25,673 nt of DNA from a virus: IMG/VR virus record IMGVR_UViG_3300003322_000287, positions 1-25,673 of that record. One strand, 5' to 3'. The notes beneath the pieces were generated by a model that worked only from the letters and a program-made list of their open reading frames with translations, did no database searches and was not told the DNA's origin. The position numbers and the translations under genes are program-made. Each line of letters starts with the position of its first letter. Position 1 is the stretch's first letter. Below are positions 7,848 through 23,768 of the stretch, in pieces.

Positions 7848-7871
7848 ATTGTAAATGTTAGGTTAGAAGCA

Positions 7872-7904
7872 CCAAAACCCCCGTAACAGAATTGTCAGGG
7901 GGTT
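7872..7904 (-). terminator. Rho-independent-like terminator or attenuator
   Basis: On the minus strand AACCCCC (7904-7898) pairs perfectly with GGGGGTT (7882-7876) across a 15-nt loop, followed by TTGGT. The 7-bp GC-rich stem with a short U-run (GGGGGTTTTGG) lies between the 82-aa gene and the DUF616 gene. A partial terminator here would make the two small upstream genes more abundant than the terminase. Confidence 0.55.
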
Positions 7905-7928
7905 GAGGGAGGAAAGAATAGAGTCTTA

Positions 7929-8530: not shown

Positions 8531-8606
8531 GTCCCCGGGCTGGATTCGAACCAGCGTTCTAAAATTTATGAGACTTTCGAGATTGACCCCACTTCTCCAC
8601 CGCGCG
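8531..8606 (-). tRNA. tRNA-Met-like (CAT anticodon) with defective acceptor stem
   Basis: Read on the minus strand, a full cloverleaf body is visible. It has TG at positions 8-9, a D-stem GAGA/TCTC with an 11-nt loop containing GGGG, and an anticodon stem AAAGT/ATTTT around loop CTCATAA (anticodon CAT). A 5-nt variable region and a T-arm GCTGG-TTCGAAT-CCAGC complete it. The acceptor is wrong: CGCGCGG against CCGGGGA pairs only at four of seven positions. C1:A72 and A11:U24 are initiator-like features, but the A/U-rich anticodon stem is not. CCA is not encoded. It may be a decayed tRNA, a tRNA with edited ends, or a tRNA-like processing signal. It lies inside the leader downstream of sigma-54 site 2. 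Confidence 0.6.
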
Positions 8607-8613
8607 ATATAAG

Positions 8614-8736: not shown

Positions 8737-8754
8737 CAGCAATAATCGTGCCAA
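8737..8754 (-). promoter_or_regulatory. sigma-54 (RpoN) type -24/-12 promoter, site 2
   Basis: Minus strand TTTGGCACGATTATTGCTG matches TGGCACG-N4-TTGCW, with GG at 8752-8751 and GC at 8740-8739, exactly 12 bp apart. The predicted start is near 8727, where the RNA would begin with the GTCTCTTAGAGAC hairpin. It directs transcription through the tRNA-like leader into the two small late genes and the head module. The core is identical to site 1. Confidence 0.8.
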
Positions 8755-8755
8755 A

Positions 8756-8771
8756 TGTTTCACGTGGAACC
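8756..8771. promoter_or_regulatory. parS-like palindrome upstream of sigma-54 site 2
   Basis: TGTTTCACGTGGAACC matches 14 of 16 bases of the canonical bacterial parS sequence (TGTTTCACGTGAAACA). The inner GTTTCACGTGGAAC is a near-perfect inverted repeat. Its centre is about -37 from the predicted start, 2 bp from the -24 element. It may bind the promoter's activator or repressor; binding by host ParB/Noc-type proteins is a second possibility. It lies just past the stop of the 40-aa gene and before AACCTTTTT, also seen upstream of site 3. Confidence 0.45.
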
Positions 8772-20871: not shown

Positions 20872-20905
20872 ATCTTACTTATACGTAAAATGTTAGATGA
20901 AGGTT
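20872..20905 (-). promoter_or_regulatory. repeated promoter-like motif, copy B
   Basis: Minus strand: AACCTTCATCTA, ACATTTTA, CGTATAAG, then 6 nt to the ATG at 20871. It is closely similar to copy A (21187-21218) and partly to copy C (25634-25673). TATAAG resembles a -10 box, which would put the start at or next to the ATG. It overlaps the last codons of the upstream 97-aa gene. Confidence 0.55.
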
Positions 20906-21186: not shown

Positions 21187-21218
21187 CGTATATTATACGT
21201 AAATCATAGATAAAGGTT
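21187..21218 (-). promoter_or_regulatory. repeated promoter-like motif, copy A
   Basis: Minus strand: AACCTTTATCTATGATTTA, then CGTATAATATACG and the ATG at 21186. TATAAT is a perfect -10-like hexamer only 5 nt from the start codon, so initiation would fall at or beside the ATG. About 25 of 32 positions are shared with copy B by eye. Confidence 0.6.
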
Positions 21219-21868
21219 ATGACTTATCTAAGATTTCGGACATTGGGGTTGGTGTTTCCACCACAGGCCGCGAACACTTCTAAGTCACCCCATAACTTTT
21301 ACCACAACGAACAGAACGACCTCGTTTGTTTGCCGCAGTGAACGTGTACCGAGTCTCCTAAGATATTCTTTTTGAGTCCATCTGTGCTGGAACGAGGGGC
21401 GTATAGACGATAGAATGCCGATAGAGGGGGGGGGCCGCGACCACTCTCGTCGCTGTCTTTGCTCACATCTCGGTTGAGATGTTCGAGAACAGAATACATT
21501 CGAGCATCGGTAGTTGTTACTGTAGTAGTTGTCCCAATCTGGGAACTTACATGATGATGAAGTTAGATAGTGATTAGACTAGGAAGACGGGTAGAGATGA
21601 AAGGCGGCAAGAAGCAAGTCAAGCCCCCTACCCCCGTTAGGACTGTAACGAGTACAGAGGCTTGACACGCTACCTATTTGTGATTGGGACCGAGGTTCCC
21701 GGTATATCGACGATGAGGCTGTAAGCGGGTAGCAAGTCATTAGAAAACCCATTCTCTTACATTTAAAGCGTTATGGCGAGACTTATTCAGTTCACCGAAG
21801 CTAGAGATCTCTTCGAGAGATGTACGGCCCTGGATGAGCGGAAGGCCGTTAGAGAGTGTTTCTTATGA
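21219..21868 (-). other. 650-bp gene-poor stretch with nested RNA stems and a G9 tract
   Basis: Perfect stems are visible at 21618-21625/21659-21666 (GTCAAGCC/GGCTTGAC, enclosing CTGTA-ACGAG-TACAG), 21669-21674/21728-21733 (GCTACC/GGTAGC), 21807-21821 (ATCTCT-TCG-AGAGAT), 21824-21829/21844-21849 (ACGGCC/GGCCGT) and 21466-21481 (CATCTC-GGTT-GAGATG). This is consistent with one or more structured non-coding RNAs. A 66-codon minus-strand frame (21299-21499) crosses a run of nine G at 21426-21434; its composition is not convincing and it may be non-coding. No canonical tRNA was recognised. Confidence 0.5.
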
Positions 21869-22411: not shown

Positions 22412-22525
22412 GGGATATAAAAAGGGAAAGCCCCCGAAGATTCCTGATATTCGCCGCTTAGCAGAGTACCTGAGACAATCAACGGGGGCAATGTTTTTAA
22501 GTCAAGTACTACTTCTCGCTAAGCA
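22412..22525 (-). promoter_or_regulatory. structured 5' leader of the SLOG gene (attenuator-like)
   Basis: The predicted RNA starts near 22525. Its first bases, GCTTAGC (22524-22518), are the exact complement of GCTAAGC (22462-22456). That second strand lies inside the loop of a 7-bp GC stem, GCCCCCG (22489-22483) with CGGGGGC (22436-22430). The GC stem is followed by TTTCCCTTTTTAT, like an intrinsic terminator, 19 nt before the ATG. The two pairings could form a pseudoknot or compete, as in a riboswitch or attenuator. No known riboswitch class was recognised. Confidence 0.5.
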
Positions 22526-22534
22526 CCCTTATTA

Positions 22535-22552
22535 CAGCAAAAACCATGCCAA
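22535..22552 (-). promoter_or_regulatory. sigma-54 (RpoN) type -24/-12 promoter, site 3
   Basis: Minus strand TTGGCATGGTTTTTGCTG has GG at 22550-22549 and GC at 22538-22537, 12 bp apart. It differs from the consensus TGGCACG-N4-TTGCW at one position (TGGCATG). The T-rich spacer resembles strong sigma-54 sites. The predicted start is near 22525, upstream of the SLOG gene. Confidence 0.65.
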
Positions 22553-22558
22553 CTTTAG

Positions 22559-22594
22559 TACGAAACATTTCGTATGTGTAACCTTTTTGGTTAC
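22559..22594. repeat. two palindromes upstream of sigma-54 site 3
   Basis: TACGAAA-CA-TTTCGTA (22559-22574) is a perfect 7-bp inverted repeat centred near -41 from the predicted start. GTAACC-TTTTT-GGTTAC (22578-22594) is a perfect 6-bp hairpin next to it. The first sits where the palindromes at sites 1 and 2 also sit and may bind a regulator. The second contains AACCTTTTT, also present beside site 2, and may be a weak terminator or part of the regulatory site. Confidence 0.5.
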
Positions 22595-22637
22595 AGAGGG
22601 AATTCTTCATTCTCTTCGGTAGGATAAGGAATCATTT

Positions 22638-23768
22638 TTAGTAAGGTAAATCGAAATCGTCATCTCCCTGCTTCTCTCCTTCCTTGAAACTTTTATAATT
22701 CTTAGAGAGTGTTTCAAGTTTGTTATACGTAAAAACAGCCTCTATTGTTTCACGAGCTTCTTTAGAAATTAATTTGTTACCTCTTGAGTACATTTGATCG
22801 ATATCGGCGGAATTGATGTATTCGAACTGATCTCCTGGTTTACAAGGTTTTGCCGTTCTTCTCAATCTGATTCCTATCGTAATCGGCTCACCGTTGTGAT
22901 CATAGTGATATGCCATGTACGTCTTGGCCGCAATATTTGACCAATAGTTCGTGTAAACACAGTGTTTCATGAGAGTGCCTTCTTCGAAGCATCTTCTCTT
23001 GCTTAATATCAATTCGAATGAGTCTGGCAGTGTCGGTAAGTGCTCATACTCGATCTTCACGTCGTCAACAAAAGACAGTTCAAGAGCCATGATCTCACGA
23101 GTCATTTTATTGTGCTCCTCTTCGAATCTCTTGTCTGACCAGTTCCAGTCTAACTTACGACCAAGTGTATTGGCTTGTTGAACACAGTCTCCCCAATGAG
23201 GCCGAACCATCGTGTCATTCGCCAGGTAAGGATTTAAATCTTTTAACACCTTCGAGTACAGGTACACTTCTTTCTTTGGATAACGACCTTTCGCAATTGC
23301 TCTGCGTAAGAGTTCCGGCGATGTAGTTTTTGGAAACTTCAATGAAGAAATGATGTACTTACAGGCATCATGAGGATTGGTGATCTTACCAGCAAAGATC
23401 CTCCTGGCAAGTTCTTTAGTTAGCCACGGTACGAGATTCTCGTTGACCACCCACTCCTTACCCACATCGGTAAATACCTCTTTTAACCGCTTAGTATAGT
23501 CTACTTTCGGAGGAGTCCAACCATACAGTTTCTTAGTATCTTTTCGATAGGTAAAGCCGGAACGTTGATTAAACAACCTGAACAATTTGTTGTTAAACAT
23601 TACATTGTACGTGTTGTCAAAGTAGGCGATCTTGGTGTCGTCCTCGTATAGACCGCTCTCGTGTATCGTCTTAGGTACCTTTTTAGAGAAGTATCGAAAT
23701 CTCTGTTGTTCAGGACTTCGCGAGATCTCTTCCTTCCACCTCTTGTCTTCTTTGTAATATTTGATCAC
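22638..23768 (-). CDS. PcfJ-like protein
   Basis: The 376-aa protein carries the PcfJ hallmark near its C-terminus: RRCFEEGTLMKHCVYTNYW (about residues 258-276), followed by a beta region (YMAYHYDHNGEPITIGIRLR). The N-terminal 240 residues are basic and helical. PcfJ was named from a conjugative plasmid cluster; phage homologues are frequent but uncharacterised, and the conserved Cys/His suggests an enzyme or metal site. The start is GTG at 23766-23768, overlapping the upstream stop as GTGA. The C-terminus is acidic (GDDDFDLPY). Confidence 0.75.
   Translation of the reverse strand: MIKYYKEDKRWKEEISRSPEQQRFRYFSKKVPKTIHESGLYEDDTKIAYFDNTYNVMFNNKLFRLFNQRSGFTYRKDTKKLYGWTPPKVDYTKRLKEVFTDVGKEWVVNENLVPWLTKELARRIFAGKITNPHDACKYIISSLKFPKTTSPELLRRAIAKGRYPKKEVYLYSKVLKDLNPYLANDTMVRPHWGDCVQQANTLGRKLDWNWSDKRFEEEHNKMTREIMALELSFVDDVKIEYEHLPTLPDSFELILSKRRCFEEGTLMKHCVYTNYWSNIAAKTYMAYHYDHNGEPITIGIRLRRTAKPCKPGDQFEYINSADIDQMYSRGNKLISKEARETIEAVFTYNKLETLSKNYKSFKEGEKQGDDDFDLPY

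Follow-up and report, generated by a model that had tools for sequence, protein, structure and literature searches.

Pseudoknotted leader RNAs that terminate transcription are known from the preQ1 and fluoride riboswitches. In the literature covered, outside of which most subscription journals lie, no report was found of sigma-54 promoters or of an RNA of the kind described below in crAss-like phages, and the passages of PMC10734468 and PMC8375218 that were covered contain nothing bearing on either. The DNA analysed here (the window) is a 25.7-kb virus fragment, i.e., positions 1 to 25,673 of IMG/VR record IMGVR_UViG_3300003322_000287, which carries its main genes on the minus strand; its portal, terminase, RNA ligase and exonuclease belong to phage families. 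Its terminase exhibits, among the matches listed, around 22-29% identity to Crassvirales and Flavobacterium elemo-phage terminases. The RNA region is situated between an upstream gene of unassigned function (22638-23768) and a SLOG gene of the YpsA type, which matches phrog_289 (E 6.6e-12) and falls slightly below the Pfam cut-off for YpsA. The same element is present in the record of a second, related phage (G001, IMG/VR 3300003321_000095; 71,232 bases, possibly incomplete).

Organization of the RNA region in two phages

From the predicted transcript start onwards, a long bulged hairpin (P1 and P2) is predicted that exposes CCCCCG in its apical loop; a downstream CGGGGG, behind which a U-rich run stands, is complementary to this loop motif, such that a loop-tail pseudoknot or a terminator might form (Table 1). 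The 3' end of the RNA is predicted within this run, at about 22417-22425. Two complements of 7 nt are complete on the minus strand, namely GCTTAGC (22524-22518) with GCTAAGC (22462-22456) and GCCCCCG (22489-22483) with CGGGGGC (22436-22430), the latter arm being directly followed by TTTCCCTTTTTAT (22429-22417). The first-pass annotation had described the first 7 nt of the mRNA as complementary to a segment within the loop of a GC stem with a U-rich run behind it, and these coordinates hold; because the partner of the 5' segment lies within the GC-stem loop, the helices interleave.

Table 1. Coordinates of the RNA region, its neighbouring gene and the promoter motifs (window positions unless stated otherwise)
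Feature	Position	Strand	Remarks
SLOG cargo gene, YpsA-type, 180 aa	21869-22411	minus	downstream; outside the conserved unit; G001 has an HNH gene at this place
Structured RNA region up to the SLOG start codon	22412-22525	minus	conserved in G001:66504-66613
P1 5' strand, UGCUUAGC	22518-22525	minus	starts at +1; fold and alignment with G001
4-nt 5' bulge, AGUA	22510-22513	minus	precedes P2 5' strand
P2 5' strand, GUACUUGA	22502-22509	minus	five of its pairs in register with G001
P3 5' strand, CCCCCG	22483-22488	minus	in apical loop, followed by conserved UU; pairs invariant relative to G001
P2 3' strand, UCAGGUAC	22466-22473	minus	fold and alignment with G001
P1 3' strand, GCUAAGCG	22455-22462	minus	fold and alignment with G001
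P3 3' strand, CGGGGG	22431-22436	minus	pairs invariant relative to G001
U-rich run, UUUCCCUUUUUAU	22417-22429	minus	putative terminator tail; the run of G001, UUUUCUUUU, is stronger
Sigma-54-type promoter core, TGGCATGGTTTTTGC (GG/GC elements)	22537-22551	minus	predicted +1 at 22525; identical at the orthologous place in G001
Sigma-54-type core, TGGCACGATTATTGC	1981-1995	minus	41 nt before ORF 783-1940; conserved at the corresponding place in G001
Sigma-54-type core, TGGCACGATTATTGC	8739-8753	minus	before the tRNA-bearing non-coding stretch; conserved at the corresponding place in G001
TTATCTA/CGTATAAK motif	about 21190-21213; G001 L008:1972 and 6099	minus (window)	variant near 20890

The folding energy of the leader is unexceptional (z = -1.22; 25 of 200 shuffles as good), and of 2000 dinucleotide-shuffled versions of the 114-nt leader, 21 contained two interleaved perfect 7-bp helices in a post hoc test, so that the window alone gives only modest support. 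Stronger support is comparative: the same element is found at the orthologous place in G001, to which the excess of exact promoter cores in the window is added (see below). There, the upstream gene exhibits 73% identity to that of the window, with the element directly behind it (L008:4594-4729), and 23 ORFs of the window were matched in the parts of G001 compared. Common to both phages are the promoter, the position of +1, the long hairpin with a 5' bulge of 4-5 nt, CGGGGG and the U-run; both loops contain an A-rich stretch before CCCCCGUU, and in both the RNA preceding the G-run is predicted to fold into the same P1/P2 hairpin. Compared to shuffles, the energy of this part is notable in G001 (z -3.21) and not notable in the window (z -1.03). 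The P1 helix anchored at +1 comprises 12 pairs in G001 (as long in 1 of 20000 shuffles, P 5e-5) and 9 pairs in the window (P 0.013).

Concerning covariation, a plain MAFFT alignment of the two RNAs (A3) places 13 P1/P2 pairs in register, which were chosen after both folds had been seen. All 13 are standard pairs in both RNAs, five being changed on both sides, two on one side and none broken; sliding controls drop from 100% to 34-45% paired, and the observed value is attained by 15 of 500 column shuffles. In an unselected test, in which the predicted fold of each phage was projected on the other, the G001 fold retained 18 of 21 pairs in the window (P 0.009) with six double changes (P 0.0015). 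The window fold retained 17 of 25 pairs in G001 (P 0.17), which is no better than chance and counts against the explanation preferred below, and likewise showed six double changes (P 0.019). With two examples only, covariation is suggestive and not proven, and it points to a P1/P2 fold that may be conserved by compensating changes; the covariance check in relatives proposed by the first-pass annotation has thereby yielded pairs changed on both sides, for two sequences. The six pairs of P3 are invariant, so P3 is without covariation support, a further point against the preferred explanation.

No match to the RNA was found in Rfam at gathering or permissive thresholds, known aptamer families included, and when the two leaders were compared with phage records by blastn, short chance pieces only were returned. 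Searches by terminase revealed no relatives in IMG/VR; G001 alone was recovered by the upstream gene and, equally, by the pattern of the element. A looser promoter-to-C-run pattern found 14 stretches, i.e., G001 and 13 others, none of the latter exhibiting hairpin and G-run on inspection by eye, and of 15 additional phages in which the TTTGGCACGATTATTGCT promoter occurs exactly, none contains CCCCCGTT-N-CGGGGG. The RNA model R1 gave four matches at E up to 1 in 25 records (window, G001 and two crAss phages), of which the two in crAss phages (E 0.002 and 0.58) were rejected, since both coincide in part with annotated coding genes and neither has the C-run. Record G007 is a fragment that, judged from promoter spacing, ends short of the expected place of the element. 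A leader peptide was also considered and rejected, as visual inspection of both RNAs showed no plausible conserved ORF.

Beyond the SLOG gene, a stretch of around 680 nt (21187-21868) contains little coding sequence. At 21629-21641 on the plus strand, CTACCCCCGTTAG is identical to 13 nt of the RNA loop of G001 and sits within a stem formed by GTCAAGCC and GGCTTGAC.

Sigma-54-type promoter cores

The core upstream of the RNA (22551-22537) matches TGGCATG-N5-TGC exactly, with GG and GC 12 nt apart, and is called sigma-54-type on the basis of the sigma-54 consensus TGGCAYG-N5-TGC. With GC counted as -13/-12, the predicted +1 is the base with which P1 begins, in the window as in G001. It coincides with the mRNA start of the first-pass annotation and, given the position of the core, lies upstream of 22518, the latest start compatible with the leader proposed there. 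A sigma-70-type promoter was rejected, the scan signal not exceeding that of shuffles.

The window contains three exact cores, whereas 400 shuffles averaged 0.03 (no core in 388, one in 12, more than one in none). Besides the leader promoter, the cores of the window stand where genes begin and are shared with G001, which is counted in favour of the explanation preferred below. G001 contains four, all on the minus strand, of which three are situated at corresponding places and are identical to those of the window, and the fourth lies apparently inside coding sequence. Among seven named relatives or neighbours (crAss001, phi14:2, cr50_1, cr10_1, cr124_1, one unverified faecal phage and one elemo-phage), the core is absent from six and occurs once in the seventh; sigma-54-type promoters are therefore regarded as a trait of this lineage and not of crAss-like phages at large. 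In a bacterial genome, the same core with GGTTTTTGCTGTAA precedes a gltB-like gene (identified by eye from its translation), gltB being a classical sigma-54 target. From the core sequences we infer use by host RNA polymerase with sigma-54. A sigma-54 activator domain was found in neither the window nor G001, both records being probably incomplete, and this is counted against the preferred explanation; the host may supply the activator.

Just upstream of the leader promoter, two perfect palindromes are found (TACGAAA-TG-TTTCGTA, 22559-22574, and TGTAACC-AAAAA-GGTTACA, 22577-22595), which are possible activator sites; G001, in which the upstream gene extends as far as the promoter, has neither. 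Directly upstream of the promoter at 8739, GTTTCACGTGGAAC (8757-8770) resembles a parS site of ParB (one match, 0.08 expected), and a close variant is present at the same place in G001. A tRNA with anticodon CAT (8531-8607), situated downstream of a sigma-54-type promoter, is found in G001 as well. A second promoter-like motif (TTATCTA, about 8-9 nt, CGTATAAK) occurs shortly before genes in both phages. In three large phages, G020 (L041), G011 (L030) and G021 (L042), sigma-54-type promoters form clusters on a single strand: G020 has 7 within 12 kb, G011 and G021 have 5 each, and many of these promoters immediately precede small genes.

Small RNA, attenuator or SLOG leader

We lean, slightly beyond an even chance, towards a discrete structured phage RNA of about 110 nt with a sigma-54-type promoter, whose 3' arm doubles as terminator and from which leaky readthrough enters a variable cargo gene. 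Host RNA polymerase with sigma-54 would transcribe this RNA from its own promoter, starting at 22525; the bulged P1/P2 hairpin would form first and hold CCCCCG in its loop, with which the emerging CGGGGG would pair, so that a loop-tail pseudoknot would be closed just ahead of the U-rich run. This pairing would double as the terminator arm, such that most transcripts would end at the U-rich run as a small RNA, and some readthrough would allow expression of whichever cargo gene follows (SLOG here, HNH in G001). The RNA itself would act independently of the cargo gene; that it binds a partner through the exposed loop is a guess. A more far-reaching version, i.e., phage small RNAs that constitute a new family and use the loop-tail pseudoknot itself as terminator, made late because host sigma-54 polymerase is hijacked for the structural-gene programme, is put forward tentatively as a possibility short of even.

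Several observations are counted against the small-RNA reading. Only two examples of the element were found, and the U-run is broken by CCC in the window. A GC stem precedes the U-run in both phages, and the run of G001 is good, which speaks for the small RNA; in the window, a terminator pattern scan found a different local stem only. Concerning targets, no phage mRNA target of the loop was found by antisense comparison with phage gene starts, a further point against the small RNA: the best of 23 loop/gene-start pairings was no better than those of shuffled loops (98.5% as good). An alternative mini-hairpin before the U-run of the window was rejected, being absent from G001 as judged by eye.

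The main rival to the small-RNA reading is a cis-acting attenuator for any gene behind the promoter, with P1/P2 and a P3 terminator hairpin as alternative folds and with a factor, polymerase speed or translation tipping the balance between termination and readthrough. Both cargo genes begin directly after the U-run, at 10-19 nt from the G-run; this arrangement would be equally suited to a leader and is counted against the small RNA. The energies are estimated, for the two RNAs, at -14.9 and -13.2 kcal/mol for P3 alone, at -21.6 and -23.5 kcal/mol for the fold with P3 strands free, and at -30.1 and -30.8 kcal/mol for the best nested folds with P3, which exclude P1/P2. Pseudoknots cost of the order of 7-9 kcal/mol; at this cost the pseudoknot and the nested states are about equal, so that energy does not discriminate between them, and the closeness of the two estimates favours the attenuator to that extent. 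The order of synthesis would favour formation of P1/P2 before that of P3, which would pair with the exposed loop when the polymerase arrives at the U-run. However, the P3 arm stays free in the P1/P2 loop, so that P1/P2 would be no true antiterminator, and the cargo genes are unrelated; an attenuator is considered rather unlikely, if less so than the readings that follow.

That there is no functional RNA fold at all, but a promoter, a C-run/G-run terminator and chance pairing of the 5' end, or an element acting at the DNA level, would agree with the similar terminator-like C-run/G-run and T arms near 7870-7905 and with the roughly 1% of shuffles that contain two such interleaved helices; against it stand the P1 helices anchored at +1 in both phages and the double-sided changes in P1/P2, and it appears improbable. 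The first-pass annotation is supported, by the sequence and by G001, in its proposal of a short RNA with stems that compete or form a pseudoknot, starting near 22525 and ending in a GC arm and U-rich run. Its further suggestion, a riboswitch or autoregulatory leader sensing a SLOG ligand or the SLOG protein, is not supported by the comparison. The position directly before the SLOG gene and the binding of nucleotide-like ligands by SLOG proteins speak for it, but the gene behind the same RNA in G001 encodes an HNH endonuclease, no SLOG homologue was found in the records of G001, which may be incomplete, and of G007, and no Rfam riboswitch matches; we regard such sensing as highly improbable. 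As promoter and loop are conserved and SLOG is replaced by HNH, with no common downstream gene in the two cases, the RNA goes with the phage locus and not with the SLOG gene, and its retention before a quite different gene makes a regulatory RNA of the phage more probable than a SLOG sensor.

Comparison with known systems

If the small-RNA reading is correct, a phage lineage with a distant relationship to crAss-like phages uses host sigma-54 for the transcription of its late region and of a dedicated small RNA, a route for which no description in such phages was found in the literature covered. Both the timing of late transcription in these phages and the ability of a pseudoknot from a hairpin loop to serve as an intrinsic terminator would then be testable.

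The preQ1 and fluoride leaders share with this RNA a 5' hairpin and a loop that pairs downstream near a U-run, whereas here there is no Rfam match and the downstream gene is not conserved, so that no constant pathway is regulated. Similarity to bacterial sigma-54 (RpoN) promoters extends to the full GG/GC core, the 12-nt register and the occurrence of the core before the bacterial gltB-like gene; in contrast to these, the promoter described here lies in a phage, before a non-coding RNA, and no activator gene was seen. Small RNAs of bacteria and phages that end at intrinsic terminators equally possess, as a general kind, their own promoter, a length of about 110 nt and a GC arm with U-run. There are two differences to that group: the 5' hairpin would here supply the terminator arm from its loop, forming a pseudoknot, and the promoter is of the sigma-54 type.
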